Positions 143-38,012 of a stretch of DNA of 47,706 bases are shown here, piece by piece. The DNA is from Planctomycetota bacterium (lineage in GTDB: Bacteria; Planctomycetota; Planctomycetia; Planctomycetales; Planctomycetaceae), in assembly GCA_030836185.1 (NCBI GenBank), contig JAURQH010000008.1, forward strand, positions 1 through 47,706, read 5' to 3'. Under the pieces are notes generated by a model, which saw nothing but the letters and a program-made list of their open reading frames with translations, made no database searches and had not been told where the DNA came from. The translations under genes and the position numbers were made by a program. The stretch's first letter is position 1. Every line of letters begins with the position of its first letter.

Positions 143-171
143 CCGTGGTCCAAATAATGGGGTCCACTTCA
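143..171 (-). mobile_element. Possible IS3-like terminal end / insertion scar
   Basis: Exactly where the signal-peptide frame stops, the minus strand reads TGAAGTGGACCCC followed by ATTATTTGGACCACGG. This resembles the terminal inverted repeats of several IS3-family elements (TG at the tip, then GTGGACCCC and TTGGACC). No transposase is visible between here and the window start, and no matching inverted copy was seen, so this would be a solo end or scar. The similarity is from memory and is weak. Confidence 0.25.
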
Positions 172-273
172 TCCATACAAGACGTCGGCTTGCGCATGCT
201 TGCCAACTGACCCTATAACAGAGAAAGCCAGAACTCCTACCGTGAATAATCTCAAGATAAGAATTTTCATCAT
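169..273 (-). pseudogene. Truncated exported protein (signal peptide only), probable fourth PEP-CTERM paralog
   Basis: A 34-codon reading frame starts at tandem ATG codons (273/270) behind a purine-rich stretch (AAAAAGGAAC on the minus strand). It encodes a classic signal peptide: MMKILILRLF, then a hydrophobic core, then an HAQAD cleavage region. It stops at TGA after only four more residues (VLYG). It lies 57 bp downstream of the PEP-CTERM gene at 331-1104 on the same strand and resembles the starts of those genes (signal, then AD). It is therefore most likely the beginning of a fourth paralog that has been disrupted. At the window edge, the minus-strand bases 26-9 read VTSQPF in another frame, similar to FTSQPF at the mature start of the 331-1104 protein. 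This suggests the body of the gene may continue beyond the window. Family assignment is inference; the signal peptide is directly visible. Confidence 0.45.
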
Positions 274-330: not shown

Positions 331-1104
331 TCAATTTTTGAAATTAATGGTTTGATTGACACGTCGATATCGTATTATCCCTAAACCACACACTGCGAGC
401 ATAAGTATCGAACCAGGTTCGGGAACCGCGTGGACTTCAATTCTGAAGGCACGATCGATACGTTGAATGAGCCGGAAATTTGCCGGTTGGCCGAGTGTTG
501 TACTCTCGGCAATAAATTCTGTGGGTGGCGAGATCACCGAGGGATATGTGGCCGACCAATGCCATAGATTTGAGGGGCTGGAGTTATTCGTCCGAGAATC
601 AATATCATAAATAGAAAGCCAGTAGTCAGTATTCGCTTCTAAGGGACGTAAAACGGGAATGTCAGCCATATAGCGATAGAACTGATGATTGGGGGCATTC
701 GGGTTATGGGTTAAAGCCTGCCCTCTCACGTTGACCTGCGTGGCCCACTTTAACGACCCCGGAACCTGTCCTGCTGCGTCATAAAATTCCAGTCGGAATC
801 CGAGGACTGGTTCGGGGTCATTGATGTTCATGGACCCATACCAAGTGACCCAGAGGGAGTTGTTCACTGGCAATGCTGATTGTGATAGCTGGAAATCATC
901 AGCGATTCGTCTTGGAGATGTCGCTCCTGTTGTGTCGCTGCGCTCGATGTCAGATCCGGGTTGCAGCGGATTGAAAGGTTGCGAGGTAAAATCTGCAAGC
1001 AGACTATTCGAGGATGTGATTGACACACATGCGAACGTAAGTACGATAAGTAATCGGCAACGAACATCGGGGGGGATGAATCTGAACATGACTGAGGGGA
1101 TCAT
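331..1104 (-). CDS. PEP-CTERM exported protein (paralog 1)
   Basis: Exported protein of 257 residues and unknown function. An N-terminal signal (hydrophobic residues 17-36, mature protein from about ADFTSQ) is followed by a beta-rich domain. The C-terminal sorting signal is VPEPGS at 227, then a hydrophobic segment and a basic tail (RYRR), the standard PEP-CTERM arrangement recognised by exosortase. Landmarks shared with its neighbours and with the kinase ectodomain are VTWYGSM (87-92), YWLSIYDIDSRT (161-172), NLWHW (179-183) and DRAFRIEV (217-224). It is the last intact gene of a minus-strand run starting with the kinase gene, 36 bp after the gene at 1141-1890. Start may be Met1 or Met6. PEP-CTERM assignment is secure; the role of the domain is unknown. 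Confidence 0.9.
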   Translation of the reverse strand: MIPSVMFRFIPPDVRCRLLIVLTFACVSITSSNSLLADFTSQPFNPLQPGSDIERSDTTGATSPRRIADDFQLSQSALPVNNSLWVTWYGSMNINDPEPVLGFRLEFYDAAGQVPGSLKWATQVNVRGQALTHNPNAPNHQFYRYMADIPVLRPLEANTDYWLSIYDIDSRTNNSSPSNLWHWSATYPSVISPPTEFIAESTTLGQPANFRLIQRIDRAFRIEVHAVPEPGSILMLAVCGLGIIRYRRVNQTINFKN

Positions 1105-1140
1105 TCGTGTTTGAGATTATTATTAAATCAAATTAGAAAG

Positions 1141-1890
1141 TTACAATTTCTCGCAGGTTCTCCTGATACGTCGCTTCATGAATCCGATACCCAGCAGTCC
1201 TACTAGAGAGAGACTGGATGGTTCGGGGACGGCGATGAAGGTAAATGCTCGCCCAAGATGGGTTGGCGTGAGAATATTCCAGGAGTCGATACTATCCGTA
1301 TTTCTGGTCGCCAACCTGACATCACGCGGAAGGCCGACTCCAGCCAGCCAATGAAAGGCCGTTTGATTTGTCTCCGCTGTAGAAGCCGATCTGTCCACAA
1401 TTTCGATCCAGTAACTGGAACCCGTCGAGAGATCCTGGTCTAAAACGAGAGTCGTGCGATATTCGTTGTACACAGATGATTGAAGGGGAGATGCTGGAAT
1501 GACATTGACTGTGCCAGTGGGCGAAAGGCTATTCGCAAAATGCTCTTGAATTATGATGTTGGGAAACGGTGTTGGAGAAAATATTGATCCCCCAGAATAG
1601 ATGCGCACACGAAAATCGAGCGGGTTGGGTGTCCCGATTGTTCCAGTCGGATCGAAGGCGTTTCCACCCCACCAAGTCACTTGGACAGCGGTGCCCAAAT
1701 CCATATCTTTTTCGAGGGTGATTCCATTCGCAAGACGCGGTGTATTAAAAGTCCCCGTCACTATGTCCGAAATGAGAGGGTCAGGATTGTCGGTATCGAC
1801 ATTGTTGATAAAAGACCCACTTGCAATTGTTCCCCTCAGAGGGACCATTAGCACAATCACCATTAGGATTTTGGGCAGTTGTAAATTCAT
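1141..1890 (-). CDS. PEP-CTERM exported protein (paralog 2)
   Basis: A 249-residue exported protein. It has a signal peptide at residues 1-24 (ending near TIASG), a beta-rich domain and a C-terminal PEP-CTERM signal (VPEPSS at 221, hydrophobic stretch, then KRRIRR). It shares the local domain landmarks VTWWGG (71-76), YWIEIVDRS (160-168), FHW (179-181) and RAFTF (214-218). It is divergent from paralog 1 in loop lengths, so the duplication is not recent. It lies 40 bp downstream of paralog 3 and 36 bp upstream of paralog 1, which fits an operon. The start is supported by AGGAC about 8 bases upstream of the ATG. No function can be assigned. Confidence 0.9.
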   Translation of the reverse strand: MNLQLPKILMVIVLMVPLRGTIASGSFINNVDTDNPDPLISDIVTGTFNTPRLANGITLEKDMDLGTAVQVTWWGGNAFDPTGTIGTPNPLDFRVRIYSGGSIFSPTPFPNIIIQEHFANSLSPTGTVNVIPASPLQSSVYNEYRTTLVLDQDLSTGSSYWIEIVDRSASTAETNQTAFHWLAGVGLPRDVRLATRNTDSIDSWNILTPTHLGRAFTFIAVPEPSSLSLVGLLGIGFMKRRIRRTCEKL

Positions 1891-1930
1891 AAAACACGTT
1901 GTCCTAAAAAATGCCTAACAAAGCAGAAGG

Positions 1931-2785
1931 TTACTTTGAGAGAGAAACCAAATTTGAGTCTCTTCTCTTACGCCTGAAAGCCTGACCTCCTGACAGGACG
2001 AGTAATAACACGCAAGTGGTCGACGGTTCCGGTACCGGCACAGCGGTTTCAATCGCAACCGCACGACTCATCGAATCGGTCCCCGTACTTTCCCATTGTC
2101 CCCCAAAGCCGAGGGACATGTTCCTTTGCAAGTCTCCTCCCGGAAGAAATTCTGAAGCCGAACTCCAGTAAAAGGCATCTTCGGAAGGGAGTGGGAACCC
2201 AGTTCCCGGATCGGTGCTGTTATCCGTTTCGAAAATAGAAATGAAGTATTGCTGGTTGGGATTCAGTGCCGGTGCATCAGACAGCACTGCGAGAAACGCG
2301 TGAAACTCCAGACCGGGAGTCTGCATTGCCGTGGGGTAAGTAAAGACTTCTGGCACTAAAAATGTCTCAAAGAATGGGGCTAGCTCGGGAAGAGTCGGAT
2401 CCAGAAAATCGGGTGAATAAAAACGAATTCCAAAACTGGGATTTGGGTCAGGAAGAAAATTTTCCGAAGAGGAGGAAATCCCTCCATCAGTCAAAGGAAG
2501 CGGTAGAGGTCCACTATCAAACCGGTCAAAGTATGCTCCTGCCCATGAGATAAATAGTGTTTGACCTGCTCCGGGCGTAAAGCCGACATTTGTGAAGTTG
2601 TCGATGGTTTCGACACCATAAAGGATCCCGTTACCAGGATCATTAAAGCCATCTGAACCGAGCAGATGGGCTGAATCTAAAGGTGTCAAATCTGACTGCA
2701 GAAAGTCGGCATCAACTCTCAATGGAGTCTGATAAAAACCGGTCATTGCCATCAACGTGATAAAATAATAACGCATGATTCTCAT
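1931..2785 (-). CDS. PEP-CTERM exported protein (paralog 3)
   Basis: A 284-residue exported protein and the largest of the three. It has a signal region at residues 1-26 (ending RVDAD), a beta-rich domain with longer loops, and VPEPST at 251 followed by a hydrophobic stretch and FRRKRR, a PEP-CTERM signal. The shared domain is visible but more diverged: FISWAGAYF (78-86), YFISIFETDNS (180-190), FYW (205-207) and RAVAIE (241-246). The start codon is 19 bp beyond the kinase stop codon, so kinase and exported protein are almost certainly co-transcribed. Loops are rich in Asp and Gly (SDGFNDPGNG), which may bind calcium; that is speculation. Function unknown. Confidence 0.88.
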   Translation of the reverse strand: MRIMRYYFITLMAMTGFYQTPLRVDADFLQSDLTPLDSAHLLGSDGFNDPGNGILYGVETIDNFTNVGFTPGAGQTLFISWAGAYFDRFDSGPLPLPLTDGGISSSSENFLPDPNPSFGIRFYSPDFLDPTLPELAPFFETFLVPEVFTYPTAMQTPGLEFHAFLAVLSDAPALNPNQQYFISIFETDNSTDPGTGFPLPSEDAFYWSSASEFLPGGDLQRNMSLGFGGQWESTGTDSMSRAVAIETAVPVPEPSTTCVLLLVLSGGQAFRRKRRDSNLVSLSK

Positions 2786-2804
2786 TCACTTAATTGCGTA
2801 CGGA

Positions 2805-4730
2805 TTATTTAGACGGAGACATTTCATGACTCGGTTTATCAACAATCTCGATTTGAAATGCACGATCACACAGTGACAATCGCGGATTGGACCAAGTCTC
2901 CTCACCGGTCCACTGCACCATGGCACCACCAAGAGAAGCAGATGGAGCCCATTGCCATAAATTGATATCTGAAGAGCGTTCCTCTGAAAGATTCCCTTTG
3001 GTTCGAGAGTCATTATCTGTAATCACAAGCCAGTATGTTTGGTGAGCCTGTAGTGGCCTCTCCCACGGAATTTCTAGTTGGTATTTCATCGTCCTGATGC
3101 GATCCGATTCTGCCTGAATTGGCTGTTTTTCACCTTTGGCAATGTGATCGCTGTGTACGTCTCGAGTACCAATATCTTCGGAGGGAAATCCGTCATTGTC
3201 GTCAAGGATTGTTATTTGAAACATCGAAGAATCAACCAGATGATTCTTGTTCATTGCCCCCCACCAGGTGAGTTTTAAGCGATTATTTTGCGGGTCATAG
3301 TCCAAGGGCAGAATAAAATTATCCGCCATTGACCGTGGAATCCCTGCTTGCAAATCACTCACCTTATAGTTTCGAAGAATAGATTTGGGGTCCCATTTTT
3401 GGCGGAATCCAAACGGTGTGAGAGGATCCCAGGTTGCCGAAGCCGATTCAGGACGATGAGAATTAGAAATAAGAACCGATTCGTTATTTGCCCCTGATGA
3501 GGGATGTGTAAAATCCTGAAAGATTCCGAACCAGACCAAGAATGCGATTACGGTTGATAATATGGCCCCAAGCAAAATATGGGAGTAACTTATCCCCGTA
3601 GTTTTCACAGACTCTTCAGCAAGCGGTTGGGACACAATTTGGACTGATGTCGCTGAATAGCTCACAATTGACTTCAAATCAGCACCAGCGACAAATGGAG
3701 CGAGAGCACCGCTTAACATTGAAGAACTCTCGATTCGATCCTCAAGATTTCGCTCAAGAGCTTGCCGAATACAATCCACAAGTTCTTGTGGTAACCCGAC
3801 CCTATGTTGAGTAATGGGTGAAGGCGATACGGAAAGCATCGCCCGGGTCTTCTGCAATGGATTGCTATACTTTTCGTGACAATAAGGTGTCACGCCTGCC
3901 AATAATTTGTAGAACGTGACGCCTAGGCTATAGATGTCCGCGCGATGATCGATACTGGTTGCATCCAGAGCTTGTTCGGGAGCCATGTAATCCAGCGTCC
4001 CCATAACTTGACCGGTGCGAGTCAATTCATCTTCCTCGCCCAACCCTCCGACATGAGCGAGACCGAGATCCATGATTTTGATCTCGCCCTCACATGTGAG
4101 CATAATATTGGACGGCTTGATGTCTCGATGAATGAGTCCTTGATCGTGGATGTATTGCAAACCTTCAGCGATCTGGCGAATAATTTCGCAAGCATCGGCG
4201 ACTGCCAGCGTTCCAGATTGCTTGAGTAAAGTCGATAAGTCGATCCCATCAACCAGCTCCATCGCCAAATACGAGACCCCATCAGATTCTCCCGCATCGT
4301 GTGCTTTCACGATGTTGGGATGATCAAGACGACCGACGGCCTTCATCTCTCGTTGAAATCTGGTAATCGAACGCGGATGATGCATTCGTGCGGAGGTGAG
4401 CATTTTGAGCGCCACGACGCGGTCCAGCGAAGTGTGAGTCGCCCGATAGACGGCTCCCATTCCTCCCTGCGCCAGAAACTCATCAATTCGATAATTTCCG
4501 AAAACCATGCCGATACGATCATCGACTGATGAAGATTCCTGTGAACTCTCCATCAATCTCATATCCACCAAATCTTCGGAAAATGAGAGCGCGCGCTGAA
4601 AATAGGCATCGTTCTCGAATGTCCATTCCGCCGGAGCATCCATTGCCTCTCCGATGGCCAGTTCAAGATCGTCTAAACTCTCCTTCATAGTCGAGAGCGC
4701 ATCTTGATTAGGCAGAGTCTCCGCCGCCAT
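2805..4730 (-). CDS. Transmembrane Ser/Thr protein kinase with PEP-CTERM-paralog ectodomain
   Basis: Receptor-type Hanks kinase of 641 residues. The kinase domain spans about 78-345: glycine loop AQGGMGAVY (87-95), ATP lysine in VALKML (K109), catalytic HRDIKPSN (201-208, D203), DLG in place of DFG (221-223) and APEQ (250-253). One membrane span follows (about 384-404, ILLGAILSTVIAFLVWFGIF), placing residues 410-641 outside. That outer domain carries TWWGAM (488-493), YWLVITDNDSRT (566-577), NLWQW (590-594) and DRAFQIEI (622-629), the same landmarks as the three PEP-CTERM proteins encoded directly downstream. It lacks a PEP-CTERM tail. The N-terminus is uncertain: an overlapping frame starting at 4792 may be the real beginning, joined by a one-base frame change. 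Kinase identity is certain; ligand and substrates are unknown. Confidence 0.95.
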   Translation of the reverse strand: MAAETLPNQDALSTMKESLDDLELAIGEAMDAPAEWTFENDAYFQRALSFSEDLVDMRLMESSQESSSVDDRIGMVFGNYRIDEFLAQGGMGAVYRATHTSLDRVVALKMLTSARMHHPRSITRFQREMKAVGRLDHPNIVKAHDAGESDGVSYLAMELVDGIDLSTLLKQSGTLAVADACEIIRQIAEGLQYIHDQGLIHRDIKPSNIMLTCEGEIKIMDLGLAHVGGLGEEDELTRTGQVMGTLDYMAPEQALDATSIDHRADIYSLGVTFYKLLAGVTPYCHEKYSNPLQKTRAMLSVSPSPITQHRVGLPQELVDCIRQALERNLEDRIESSSMLSGALAPFVAGADLKSIVSYSATSVQIVSQPLAEESVKTTGISYSHILLGAILSTVIAFLVWFGIFQDFTHPSSGANNESVLISNSHRPESASATWDPLTPFGFRQKWDPKSILRNYKVSDLQAGIPRSMADNFILPLDYDPQNNRLKLTWWGAMNKNHLVDSSMFQITILDDNDGFPSEDIGTRDVHSDHIAKGEKQPIQAESDRIRTMKYQLEIPWERPLQAHQTYWLVITDNDSRTKGNLSEERSSDINLWQWAPSASLGGAMVQWTGEETWSNPRLSLCDRAFQIEIVDKPSHEMSPSK

Positions 4731-4792
4731 CGAGTCTCATCCAGCCAGGCGAGATGTTCGGCTAATCGTTCCATGTCAGGTTTCTGTGCCAT
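4685..4792 (-). other. Small overlapping ORF, probable frameshifted N-terminus of the kinase
   Basis: A 35-codon frame starts at an ATG preceded by GGGAAGA. It reads MAQKPDMERLAEHLAWLDET and runs into the kinase start in another frame. The kinase ATG at 4730 has a TGA two codons upstream and no good ribosome-binding site. The upstream frame has a better site and reads like a normal helical N-terminus. One missing base near 4731-4733 would fuse LAWLDETR to MAAETLPNQD. Alternatives are a translationally coupled leader peptide, or chance. Positions 4793-4993, between this and the sigma gene, show no other gene. Confidence 0.4.
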
Positions 4793-4993: not shown

Positions 4994-5575
4994 TCAGTCT
5001 GTTTCCAGGATTTCTTTCAGTCGCTGCAAGACACGGTACTTGGCCTGCTTGACCGCCGAAGATGACATGCCAAGCTCGGCACATAAATCGCAAACAGATT
5101 TCTTTTCGATGGCAATGCCATAGAAAGCTTGCCAGGTTTGCTCGGAAAAGTCGGGCCTTACCACGGTCAAGGCGTTTCGGAGCAACTGTTGTTGAACTCG
5201 CAGCAATTCTTCCGGGTCGTCTGATTCTGAAGGAGCATCGGGAAGCTGTTGCATCCTGAAATCTTCCGAAGAGCCCCCCTTGCCTTGTTGAGGGATCGCA
5301 CGTTTTCGAAAAACGCGTGCCATTCGGTTACGGGTAATCCCCCATAGCCAACCACGAAAACTCTGATGCTCGTACCGAGCAAGATCAGAATGCACCGTCA
5401 TTAATACTTCCTGGACGACATCGGCAGCGTCCTCCATCTGTAAACCGGCTTTCAAGCACCAGTGATAGACGAGCGGACAATACAGACGACACAGCTTTTT
5501 CCACGCTTCCGGGTCATGACGAGCCAGCTCACTCAGCATTCGAGAAGAGGTAGAACCGGGTGATAGATAGGTCAT
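4994..5575 (-). CDS. ECF-type RNA polymerase sigma factor
   Basis: A 193-residue sigma-70-family factor of extracytoplasmic-function size, with region 2 and region 4 only. Region 2 contains DAADVVQEVLMTVH and SFRGWLWGITRNRMARVFRK; the SFRGWLW/ITRNR signature is typical of planctomycete ECF factors. Region 4 contains LGMSSSAVKQAKYRVLQRLKE, a helix-turn-helix that contacts the -35 element. ATG at 5575 is chosen; an in-frame TTG at 5587 is the alternative. Neither has a convincing ribosome-binding site. It precedes the kinase gene by about 200 bp on the same strand. Planctomycete ECF factors are commonly encoded beside Ser/Thr kinases, and here it probably responds to or drives the kinase/PEP-CTERM operon. 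No anti-sigma gene is visible, so kinase control is plausible. Confidence 0.9.
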   Translation of the reverse strand: MTYLSPGSTSSRMLSELARHDPEAWKKLCRLYCPLVYHWCLKAGLQMEDAADVVQEVLMTVHSDLARYEHQSFRGWLWGITRNRMARVFRKRAIPQQGKGGSSEDFRMQQLPDAPSESDDPEELLRVQQQLLRNALTVVRPDFSEQTWQAFYGIAIEKKSVCDLCAELGMSSSAVKQAKYRVLQRLKEILETD

Positions 5576-5685
5576 GTCAATAGCCAAAAATCGGTCGAAC
5601 GAGAGTGACTTTGAGAGAGCCTAATGGAATTCTTCGGTTCTGGCAATCTGATCTCTGACGACTTCATCTTGAATTCTCTGACCTA

Positions 5686-34764: not shown

Positions 34765-35057
34765 TTATTCTTCCTCGCGAATCTCTGTTTTTTTCGTGCT
34801 AATGCTCCACAAAAAGCTACAATAATATTGTGTACGGTTTGCCTTTGGCACAATCGATAAACACGGGCCCATCATTTGCGTCGATCCTGGGAAATGTTCT
34901 TTTTTCTACGGGATGGACGGAACCTAAGATGTCGATTAATCGTCTACACTCCTGAACTACCTGCAAATTCTGAACGATGGGAGACCACCTTCTTCAGCCG
35001 TACAGGATTTGTGGTCATCAAGTACATCCATTTAATTTCCTCTTATCTGACTGCAAA

Positions 35058-38012
35058 ATGGCCGAATCGGGATCAACAGGTTCGACACCAATCTCAGCGA
35101 GCGGACAGGCGTTTCCGTTCTCTGACGCCCCCCCTGTGCGCAAGTCCCAAGAGACAGTCCTGAATCCTGAGGGACGCCCACAATCCGCGACAACCGCGAC
35201 AACCGAGACTCCACAAACCTCCACACAACCTGAGCCCGAAATCCATAGTTTATTGTTCCCTGACCTGTCTCAGCTTTCTCCAGGCGAGATTCCCGATTCT
35301 CCTCACGGAGTGAAACTTGCACATTTTGAGTTAGTGGATCGAATTGGTTCGGGCGGAATGGGTTCGGTGTTTCTGGCTCTCGATTTACATTTACAGAGAT
35401 ATGTGGCACTCAAAATCTTGGCCCCTTCTCAAGCCAGAGAACCCTCCTCAATTCAAAGATTTCTCAACGAAGCACGAGCCGCGGCGAGGCTCGATTATGA
35501 TGGAATTGCCCGTGTTCACTTTTATGGTGAGGACTGTGGGTTTCATTTCATTGCTTTTGAATATGTCACGGGGACGAATGCGAGAGATCTGATTAGTCAA
35601 CGCGGCCCCTTAAACCCGGGTGATGCAATTAACTTCACTTTGCAGATTGCCCACGCGCTGAAGCACACTTCCGCTGCCGGAGTCGTTCATCGAGATATCA
35701 AACCCTCGAACATTATTGTCAATCCGGCAGGTCGCGCGAAACTGGTCGATTTGGGTCTCGCTCGTAAAGAGTCGTCTGAGTCGATGGACGATCTAACGGT
35801 CGCCGGGACCACTCTGGGGACATTCGATTACATCTCTCCCGAGCAGGCACAGGATCCGCGAAATGTCGATGTGCGAAGTGATATCTATTCACTGGGATGC
35901 ACGCTGTTCCACATGCTCACAGGCGAACCACCTTACCCCGAAGGAACATTGGCTCAAAAACTTCTCGATCATCAACAAACCTTCGTCCCTAACCCGGCAG
36001 ACGTCAATCGAAGAATCGCACCACAATTAGCTGCCGTCACGCAAAAAATGATGGCCAGCGATCCCAAGAAGCGATATCAATCTCCCGAATCGTTGATTCG
36101 GGATCTGCTGATGGTCGCCAGCGATCAAGGGTTACGTGGTGTCACTCCTGAAGGCCTTGTGTGGTCGGATAGTTTAAAAACCAATGAACAACCCTTCCTG
36201 GCCAAACACGCCGGTTGGATCGCTGCGGTCGCCGTGCTACTTCTGATCGTCTACTCTTTGGATCGACTCGATAAAACTCCCCCCGACGCAAATCAGTCGG
36301 TCGCCAATTCGAACATCAATCCCAATGACAGTCTCGAAAACTCAGGTGTCGATTCCAATTCCGAAGAAGAAAAAACAGAACCTTCCATCCCGGCTGACGA
36401 GACTCAGGACAAGCAACCGGAAAACAGTCTGATCACGATGCAGGACAACCTGCCAGAAACAATCGGAGGATCACTTCCCCAAGAGACACTTCCTGGAACG
36501 GGTGTAGGAAATATCCTGAATCTGCACAATCCCGATGGCATCTTCAACCAACCCCTCGTTGATAATTCCGATACACCCGAACTGCTCATCGCAAGAAACT
36601 CGAACGGTAACAATACCCCTTCCACCACCTACACAGATTCGGCATTATCACCTCAAATCCCGTTAGCCCCACCAGAAGTCGTCTCAGTCACACCAAATAC
36701 TCCGCCAGAAAAATCCAACACCACGGCCTCTCCGCTTCCCGATGACCCAGAAACATCACCGCTGATGAAATCAGAGTTGCCTGAGAGCCCGGTTGTTCTC
36801 TGGGCGATGGGAGCCTCGGAACCTCAAGAATACAATACGTTAGAAGCAGCTTGTGCAAATGCGCGAAGTGGTAGCATCATCGAACTGCAATACAATGGTT
36901 TTTTGAAAGATCGTCTGGAAAAACCGATCACCATCAATAAGAACATTACGATTCGAGCTGCCAAAAACTTCCGCCCCGTAGTTTCGTTTACCAGTCGACT
37001 CAATCCCGATCAATCCGACACCCGTATGATCACCATTCGGGAAGGTTCACTCAATCTGGTGAATGTCGATCTACACCTGAATATCCAGCACGGCGTGACA
37101 TACCCCACACGGGAACATTGGACCCTCTTTTCCGTCCAAGGATCGGATCAGTTAAGTTTGAAGAATGTAACTGCAACGATTCAGAACGAAGCTCGCGAAC
37201 CTGCGGCCATCATTGAACTTGTTCGCGGATTGGGTGATGAACTGGAAAAAATGAAGATGAAAACAACTGGTTCATCTTTGAATATCGATCCCTTTGTTCT
37301 CTCCATTCAAGACTCGGTCTTGCGAGGTGAATCTCACGGCTTGCTCGTAAAAACCGCCCGCCCGGGTCGCGTTCGTGTCGAAAACAGCATGATCGCTGTC
37401 GAGAGCTCGCTCATTTTGAATGAAGGCTCGACCGATATGCCAGTGGAGTCGAGTCTGGTTGAACTCGAATTGAAACATTCGACAGTGGCCACAGGCTCTT
37501 CACCGTTTCGTTTTGCGAGTGGCGAAGCGCAACGATTTCTATTACCAGTTTCGGTCACCAGCGAAAACTCACTCTATGCTTTGAATCCTGTATTGGTTGC
37601 CCCGTTTGTCTCGATGACCGGAGCCACCAATCCAGCTGACTTCAGATCACTTTTGAGTTGGTACGGTCGCCGAAATTTCTATCACGGCTTTGAGCTGTTC
37701 TGGACAATCGCCGATGATTTCGGAAGCACAGAACTGACTGATCTCAACTTTGAAGACTGGAGCAACCACTGGTCAGATCGAGAAGGTACAATTGAAGACG
37801 CCGCCGTCGCAGGCATGATCCAGTGGGCTGATAGTTGGGAAACAGGAGCTTCAATTTTCTCTAAAGTCATTCCTCAACAATTACAAATCGAACAAGACTC
37901 TGAAAACCAACAGGATTTATTAGCCTCGGATGGTTCGATACTGGGAGCAAGTTTGGATCGACTCCCCACCCCTCCCAAATCTCTGACTCCTCCACGCCTT
38001 CCACTGGAATAG
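35058..38012 (+). CDS. Transmembrane Ser/Thr kinase with beta-helix ectodomain
   Basis: A Hanks kinase of about 984 residues from ATG 35058; an upstream in-frame start at 34977 gives an implausible leader. A Ser/Thr/Pro-rich N-terminus (1-82) precedes the kinase domain at about 89-352: GSGGMGSVF (97-105), K119 in VALKIL, HRDIKPSN (211-218, D213), DLG (231-233) and SPEQ (260-263). One membrane span lies at about 384-402 (HAGWIAAVAVLLLIVYSLDR). A long Asn/Pro/Thr-rich linker (405-560) follows, then a region with pectate-lyase-like parallel beta-helix character (ACANARSGSIIELQYNGFL, PITINKNITIRAAKNFRPVV, LNLVNVDLHLNIQHG, LSLKNVTATIQNEAREP). The outer domain may bind polysaccharide or envelope material. 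It is unrelated to the ectodomain of the kinase at 2805-4730. Confidence 0.93.
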   Translation: MAESGSTGSTPISASGQAFPFSDAPPVRKSQETVLNPEGRPQSATTATTETPQTSTQPEPEIHSLLFPDLSQLSPGEIPDSPHGVKLAHFELVDRIGSGGMGSVFLALDLHLQRYVALKILAPSQAREPSSIQRFLNEARAAARLDYDGIARVHFYGEDCGFHFIAFEYVTGTNARDLISQRGPLNPGDAINFTLQIAHALKHTSAAGVVHRDIKPSNIIVNPAGRAKLVDLGLARKESSESMDDLTVAGTTLGTFDYISPEQAQDPRNVDVRSDIYSLGCTLFHMLTGEPPYPEGTLAQKLLDHQQTFVPNPADVNRRIAPQLAAVTQKMMASDPKKRYQSPESLIRDLLMVASDQGLRGVTPEGLVWSDSLKTNEQPFLAKHAGWIAAVAVLLLIVYSLDRLDKTPPDANQSVANSNINPNDSLENSGVDSNSEEEKTEPSIPADETQDKQPENSLITMQDNLPETIGGSLPQETLPGTGVGNILNLHNPDGIFNQPLVDNSDTPELLIARNSNGNNTPSTTYTDSALSPQIPLAPPEVVSVTPNTPPEKSNTTASPLPDDPETSPLMKSELPESPVVLWAMGASEPQEYNTLEAACANARSGSIIELQYNGFLKDRLEKPITINKNITIRAAKNFRPVVSFTSRLNPDQSDTRMITIREGSLNLVNVDLHLNIQHGVTYPTREHWTLFSVQGSDQLSLKNVTATIQNEAREPAAIIELVRGLGDELEKMKMKTTGSSLNIDPFVLSIQDSVLRGESHGLLVKTARPGRVRVENSMIAVESSLILNEGSTDMPVESSLVELELKHSTVATGSSPFRFASGEAQRFLLPVSVTSENSLYALNPVLVAPFVSMTGATNPADFRSLLSWYGRRNFYHGFELFWTIADDFGSTELTDLNFEDWSNHWSDREGTIEDAAVAGMIQWADSWETGASIFSKVIPQQLQIEQDSENQQDLLASDGSILGASLDRLPTPPKSLTPPRLPLE

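Follow-up and report, generated by a model that had tools for sequence, protein, structure and literature searches.

A planctomycete transmembrane Ser/Thr kinase with an outer domain related to the PEP-CTERM proteins encoded directly behind it

Introduction

The stretch of DNA described here, called the window below, comprises positions 1 to 47,706 of contig JAURQH010000008.1 (assembly GCA_030836185.1) from a bacterium of the family Planctomycetaceae. Close to its start it carries, on the minus strand, genes for an extracytoplasmic function (ECF) sigma factor, for a transmembrane Ser/Thr protein kinase and for three exported proteins with PEP-CTERM tails, designated C, B and A in the order of their genes. 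On sequence comparison the homology between the C-terminal ectodomain of the kinase and the exported proteins is firm, and it suggests that the sensor watches the proteins produced together with it or has a target in common with them.

The setting is of a known kind. ECF sigma factors encoded beside Ser/Thr kinases have been described (PMC8999054; PMC8103513), and several of the kinase-linked ECF groups, such as ECF59, ECF61, ECF62 and ECF217, have planctomycete examples according to the former. Most planctomycete Ser/Thr kinases span the membrane, and their accessory domains vary widely (PMC11032199). Here we present the features of the locus, together with its relatives in other genomes and a proposal for its function.

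Locus organization and features

The kinase and exported-protein open reading frames (ORFs) lie at the positions given in the original prediction for this locus (Table 1), in the order kinase, C, B, A on one strand with intergenic gaps of 19, 40 and 36 bp; the sigma factor gene is located upstream of the kinase gene. With its kinase domain, one membrane span and a further domain beyond it in a C-terminal part of 238 residues, the kinase has the domain layout of a sensor and very likely acts as one.

Table 1. Features of the gene run in the window
Feature	Position	Strand	Evidence or remark
ECF sigma factor	4994..5587	-	NCBIfam TIGR02937 sigma70-ECF, 65.6 bits (cut-off 42.9), and motif alignment; sigma2.2 motif DAAD
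Transmembrane Ser/Thr protein kinase with DUF7901-like C-terminal ectodomain, 641 aa	2805..4730	-	
Cytoplasmic kinase domain, aa 80-339	3714..4493	-	Pfam PF00069, E 5.3e-53
Sole membrane span, linking kinase domain and ectodomain	3522..3578	-	Hydropathy peak 2.51 over 19 residues
Extracytoplasmic DUF7901-like domain of the kinase, aa 456-632	2835..3365	-	Predicted mainly beta
Exported DUF7901-like protein C	1931..2785	-	PEP-CTERM tail 1964-2038; begins 19 bp past kinase stop
Exported DUF7901-like protein B	1141..1890	-	PEP-CTERM tail 1159-1233
Exported DUF7901-like protein A	331..1104	-	Pfam PF25470, 25 bits (cut-off 24); PEP-CTERM tail 361-429
Signal-peptide-like ORF of 34 codons followed by a stop, possibly the beginning of a fourth exported gene	169..273	-	Translation; candidate only

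Homology of the kinase ectodomain and the exported proteins

By BLASTP the kinase matches protein A with 67.4 bits and an E-value of 5e-17 (57 of 174 positions identical, 33%, with 16 gap positions). Protein A is the closest relative found for the kinase ectodomain, and the short motifs from which the original prediction had deduced the relationship occur, in the order given there, in both proteins. The matches of the kinase to B (best E 0.085) and to C (best E 0.41) are not significant; both proteins are diverged relatives of the ectodomain, as had been proposed, and join it via profiles only.

These profiles were hidden Markov models (HMMs), run in a leave-one-out design in which each of nine domains was sought with the profile of the other eight among 18,000 shuffled decoys. 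All nine domains were recovered, with best decoys between 11.8 and 17.6 bits: the kinase ectodomain scored 61.2 bits (best decoy 14.3), A 93.1 (17.6), B 52.3 (11.8) and C 42.0 (14.7), and the domains from contig C35 of the same genome and from the genomes G002, G106, G127 and G060 scored 45.9, 58.5, 72.6, 42.2 and 32.4 bits, respectively. The nine domains were picked from the 12 match rows of a search with protein A, of which those from the window, C35, G002, G106, G127 and G060 were kept and those from G142, G126, G035 and G064 left out; C was added, though unlisted among the 12, and G142 was used in a later alignment. An HMM built from the three exported domains alone finds the kinase with 34.2 bits (best decoy 14.7), in agreement with the original prediction. 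Without A, a profile of B, C and the C35 and G002 domains still reaches 22.2 bits (best decoy 12.5); with hhalign the same four-sequence profile matches the kinase's domain weakly, at 38% probability over 39 columns. Identity to this domain in the alignment is 30% for A and 14-23% for the 18 other rows.

Among the window proteins, the cut-off of Pfam DUF7901 (PF25470, 24 bits) is passed by A alone, and narrowly. Neither B nor C, the whole kinase or the kinase ectodomain was listed for PF25470 at E 1, and the name DUF7901-like is used because these were joined to the family by the leave-one-out profiles. Elsewhere, the relative from G106 passes clearly with 47.9 bits and that from G127 falls just short with 22.8. 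No paper naming DUF7901 was found in the open-licence literature.

Predicted fold

The AlphaFold2 model of the kinase ectodomain, made from a 20-row alignment, has a mean predicted local distance difference test value (pLDDT) of 68 and a predicted template modelling score (pTM) of 0.71 and consists mainly of beta strands. The model of A, made from 19 rows without the kinase (pLDDT 73, pTM 0.75), is also mainly beta, with a strand order similar to that of the kinase ectodomain. The original prediction that sensor and exported proteins share one fold holds as far as common ancestry goes, on the BLASTP and HMM results, and the predicted folds are compatible with this. As 19 rows are common to both folding alignments, the likeness of the models is partly built in.

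In a second fold comparison the kinase ectodomain model was closest to the lectin-like domain of Cwp84 (Z 10.3, root-mean-square deviation 2.9, 136 residues aligned), the next unrelated entry being a phage baseplate protein (Z 8.2). The same baseplate protein is the best match of the A model (Z 7.1), followed by several carbohydrate-binding modules at Z 5-6, all of them values under 8, which may reflect a common arrangement alone. Cwp84 is not among the 50 matches listed for A, which proves nothing. With middling confidence, the models indicate that the domains of the family are beta-rich and resemble lectin-like or carbohydrate-binding folds, and one may reasonably guess that they bind glycans or surfaces.

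The sigma factor and related kinase loci

The NCBIfam matches of the window's sigma factor are to general and other ECF models. Canonical ECF sigma factors have DAED as their sigma2.2 motif, against DAAD in the window; DAAD occurs in 10 of 18 aligned sigma factors (the window's included), DASD in those of contigs C35 and C43, and DAED in none of the 18, some of which are distant. In EcfP the motif is replaced by STTA, of which the Thr is phosphorylated (PMC8999054). The modules EcfP/PknT and EcfK/PknS resemble the module of the window in having an ECF sigma gene beside that of a transmembrane Ser/Thr kinase and a sigma2.2 motif unlike DAED.

At related kinase loci of other genomes (n = 15, E 1e-80) a related sigma gene was present within the stretch in 12 cases; the other three lie on contigs of 3.8, 5.6 and 9.9 kb. 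At all 15 loci the search for DUF7901-like domains (E 0.01) and the regular expression for PEP-CTERM tails remained without a match. Searches of genome contigs with the whole kinase delivered seven loci from planctomycete metagenome-assembled genomes, with 40-48% identity over the kinase domain, and a search for the kinase/A pair delivered 39 pattern matches, among them no confirmed relative.

Occurrence of the arrangement

The kinase has 29 matches in its own genome (E 1e-20). These 29 kinase frames were examined in stretches of at least 10 kb (the whole window for two of them), and the ORFs of each stretch were searched at E 1e-4 for resemblance to the part of the kinase that follows the membrane span or, in the absence of a called span, the kinase domain. 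Comparison covered 23 of the 29; the six with at most 60 residues past kinase domain or span were left out, and two further kinases, on contigs C43 and C102, lie at contig ends. The ectodomain matched a neighbour in two of the 23, the window's kinase and a pair on contig C8 (L132 5517-9700). The C8 pair was rejected as a second case: both ORFs consist of WD40 repeats and overlap, and the pair looks like one frameshifted gene. The WD40 pair aside, the window's kinase appears, among these 23 of 29, to be alone in its genome with an ectodomain resembling an adjacent protein.

Beyond this genome, overlapping sets of 149, 170, 392 and 397 genomes were surveyed. In 149 relatives the kinase ectodomain was matched in one, its own genome, and protein A in nine, its own included. 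Of 392 genomes from the phylum, 23 had matches to a nine-row profile; a six-row profile found matches in three of 170 genomes of the family and eight of 397 of the class, in each case with the genome itself included. The best six candidates per genome were scored in the 392-genome search and the best eight in the 397-genome search; the former had 28 match rows in genomes other than the window's, and for 27 of these a locus with flanks of about 1.5 kb was available. No second frame joining a kinase domain and a DUF7901-like domain was found at any of the surveyed loci, where a second case could be missed because frames may outrun the loci and because the best six or eight candidates per genome were scored. 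The arrangement appears rare in the genomes searched.

In G106, which belongs to another planctomycete family, the genes for a DUF7901-type PEP-CTERM protein and for a Ser/Thr kinase are arranged head to head (L018 8924-12870), and a sigma-like ORF lies just beyond. G191, G142 and G060 each have a DUF7901-like gene with a kinase nearby. These four genomes are not taken as support because kinases are common there.

Sister modules and origin of the ectodomain

The closest kinases in the genome are encoded on contigs C43 and C35, each adjoining a sigma gene related to that of the window. On C43 the contig ends about 200 bases past the kinase. The C35 module consists of sigma factor, kinase and a DUF7901-like PEP-CTERM gene, whose ORF overlaps the kinase stop if read from a GTG start and begins 8 bp past it if read from an ATG start (the latter determined by eye). 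Behind this gene lies a further PEP-CTERM-like ORF (locus L016 4047-4760), the upstream part of which, translated by eye, is signal-peptide-like and then reaches an in-frame stop.

Among 46 kinase domains placed in a tree, those of the window and C35 kinases are sisters (support 100/82) within a clade that also holds C43 (100/99). The ectodomain of the C35 kinase is of another kind than that of the window kinase. At E 0.1 the window ectodomain had no match among 20 further ectodomains from related kinases, and the C35 and C43 ectodomains resemble each other marginally (BLASTP E 0.002). For the latter two, Pfam gave nothing convincing and NCBIfam nothing; a propeller-like appearance of both was an impression only, to which these databases gave no backing, and was dropped.

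A tree of 20 DUF7901-like domains groups the kinase ectodomain with A (94/92), C with the G002 protein (98/94) and B with the C35 protein (92/84); these groupings are indicative only.

The simplest history we can infer is an ancestral module of sigma factor, kinase and DUF7901-like gene in which the window's kinase later gained a product-type ectodomain. This ectodomain was probably acquired by a domain swap, as the C35 sister has the DUF7901-like PEP-CTERM gene and a differing kinase ectodomain. The swap might also have been mere domain shuffling without functional link, in which a generic outer-surface domain was copied onto the kinase from a gene at hand and the kinase's signal has nothing to do with the exported proteins. 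Such shuffling would fit the spread of the family across the phylum (23 of 392 genomes, with frames of 208 to 1356 aa), the varied ectodomains of the related kinases, among which turnover looks common, and the lone DUF7901-like gene of G002. We regard it as rather unlikely, however, since the closest relative found for the ectodomain comes from the same gene run and both sister modules carry DUF7901-like exported genes.

On contig C7 of the genome a DUF7901-like copy with in-frame stops was seen (L102 from 7853), which by eye is like an intact ORF on contig C71 of G002. Together with the signal-peptide-like ORF stopped early at 169-273, which is aligned with the exported genes close to the contig end, it would be in keeping with a decaying or recently shuffled locus of little present function. 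That is extremely improbable for the window, where the ORFs of the sigma factor, the kinase and the three exported proteins are all intact and the score of the kinase domain is 180.5 bits.

PEP-CTERM tails and the missing exosortase

In a whole-genome scan the PEP-CTERM tails of A, B and C scored 23.8, 25.4 and 20.7 bits, all marked as over the cut-off of 20.7; in a whole-protein hmmscan they scored 20.6, 21.1 and 17.5, and B alone passes. The genome has eight PEP-CTERM matches, of which half lie inside the window module (three) and the C35 module (one). The others lie on C92, C49, C74 and C56, one each; that on C56 is in a 52-aa frame, that on C74 has another kinase at a distance of about 5 kb, and the stretches examined around those on C92, C49 and C56 contain neither kinase nor sigma matches. 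The mean hydrophobicity of the tails over 15 residues is 2.11 for A, 1.56 for B and 1.61 for C. The N-terminal hydrophobic stretches of A, B and C reach 2.14, 2.27 and 1.13 (the weaker one) and fit signal peptides, as judged from hydropathy means alone.

No exosortase was detected in the genome by PF09721 (E 0.01) or TIGR02602 (E 10), an absence that rests on these two family models and on an assembly that is 97.9% complete in 107 contigs. Across 59 genomes PF09721 found an exosortase in 33, including G001 of the same genus, and none in G002, which is also of the same genus. The DUF7901-like protein of G002 has a PEP-CTERM-like tail of 14.4 bits, below the cut-off.

The designation of A, B and C as exosortase substrates is consequently doubtful. 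With it becomes very improbable the scheme of the original prediction, in which exosortase-cleaved proteins, released or moved to the surface, act as soluble competitors or ligand mimics: the tails do reach the cut-off in the whole-genome scan and the N-terminal stretches fit signal peptides, but neither this genome nor G002 has yielded the cutting enzyme, which PF09721 finds in more than half of the genomes scanned with it, G001 among them. If the absence of an exosortase is real, the usual enzyme could not cut the tails, and the three proteins might remain tethered to the inner membrane on the side that the kinase ectodomain faces. This would favour a role near the sensor, as co-receptor or competitor, over release.

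In a co-receptor complex the tail-anchored proteins would sit beside the kinase ectodomain in the inner membrane and tune or gate the kinase. The common domain family with its compatible predicted fold, the hydrophobic tail segments of A, B and C, the undetected exosortase and the tight gene order are consistent with such a complex; against it stand the low identity of the exported domains to that of the kinase, even for A, and the only moderately hydrophobic tails of B and C, and we consider it unlikely. A more specific form would be a bacterial counterpart of the signalling by plant receptor-like kinases and receptor-like proteins, in which a receptor kinase is accompanied by three membrane-anchored, kinase-less copies of its ectodomain family, with the PEP-CTERM tails as permanent anchors in a lineage with no detectable exosortase, and in which these assemble with the receptor or gate it in order to control the ECF sigma factor; this is decidedly unlikely.

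Comparison with known systems

The nearest precedent known to us is the SigI/RsgI systems of Clostridium thermocellum, to which the module of the window bears a likeness of principle and not of membership. The RsgI anti-sigma sensors have outer domains such as CBM3, PA14 and GH10, domains of the CBM3 and GH10 kinds are also reported from cellulosome parts, and SigI6 recognised the promoters of genes for such parts in a Bacillus subtilis host (PMC4711584). In both systems a membrane sensor is encoded next to its sigma factor and has an outer domain of the kind found in exported products; on sequence comparison, the window's sensor ectodomain belongs to the same domain family as the exported products of its own system. 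RsgI, however, is an anti-sigma factor and its products are cellulosome parts, whereas the window has a kinase and PEP-CTERM proteins, and the cytoplasmic part of this kinase is a protein kinase domain and not the N-terminal anti-sigma domain of RsgI.

In Proteobacteria, the histidine kinase PrsK and the response regulator PrsR are linked to the expression of PEP-CTERM proteins (PMC1569441). As in the window, there are exported proteins that bear PEP-CTERM tails and a membrane kinase, which in the proteobacterial case is tied to their expression; PrsK/PrsR differs in its histidine kinase, its sigma-54 control and its proteobacterial hosts, the window's genome being one without a detected exosortase. 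Plants have pairs of receptor-like kinases and receptor-like proteins, in which kinase-bearing and kinase-less membrane proteins have a common type of ectodomain. To the window operon they offer an analogy only.

A sensor that shares a domain with exported products is thus not new. The original prediction had held that no pathway is described in which a receptor kinase and exosortase substrates share a domain; this stands for the combination of receptor kinase and PEP-CTERM protein, of which no case was found in the open-licence literature (subscription papers being mostly outside its scope), but not for the sharing of a domain between sensor and product as such, which RsgI already displays. 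Nor was an ECF module with a linked Ser/Thr kinase found there whose ectodomain is common to exported proteins of neighbouring genes.

Proposed function

The proposal that follows is built on the homology, the gene order, the domain layout, the C35 module and the non-detection of an exosortase. We give a probability of roughly 0.4 to a sigma factor/kinase module in which the kinase's outer, lectin-like domain of the DUF7901 family derives from the module's own product family and serves a feedback through a shared ligand. The kinase would sense a ligand of the surface or matrix, perhaps a glycan, via a domain of the exported proteins' family and would activate its partner sigma factor, which would drive the kinase gene and the genes of the exported proteins. 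These would retain their PEP-CTERM tails as membrane anchors, given that no exosortase is detectable. The exported copies would bind the same class of ligand as the sensor and could compete with it, and the feedback would run through product-homologous sensing. In evolutionary terms, the kinase would have received a product-type domain by a swap, its relatives having ectodomains of other kinds.

Several points weigh against this proposal. The DAAD motif has no phosphorylatable residue, with Ala where C35 and C43 have Ser, so that control by phosphorylation at this site is not supported for the window's sigma factor. The anchor step would fall if the 2% of the genome that is missing encoded an exosortase, or if one is present that has diverged beyond the reach of PF09721 and TIGR02602. 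The structural side is burdened by the middling confidence of both models, by the overlap of their alignments, by the Z values of A and by Foldseek, which found no match in the PDB for either model at E 0.001 or better. In the tree of 20 domains, nine of 17 inner branches are open, the composition of the kinase row is unusual and the grouping of B with the C35 protein was flagged as two long branches meeting. Finally, the 20 kb examined around the DUF7901-like PEP-CTERM gene of G002 contain neither a kinase nor a sigma match, and therefore the DUF7901-like family is not tied to sigma/kinase modules.

To our knowledge, almost nothing is known of the ligands of planctomycete Ser/Thr kinases. For the window's kinase, the exported proteins, or whatever they bind, are the first candidates for the signal. 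The locus also raises the question of which role PEP-CTERM tails have in genomes in which an exosortase cannot be found.

Additional features of the window

A short out-of-frame ORF with an ATG start, seen by eye at 4731-4792 on the minus strand, enters the kinase gene and might encode a leader peptide. Scans for sigma-70 promoters and terminators delivered 12 and 8 sites, compared with 7.3 and 5.5 in shuffled sequences, and are thus uninformative. A second transmembrane Ser/Thr kinase frame of the window, no close kin of the first, is located at 34974-38009 on the plus strand.

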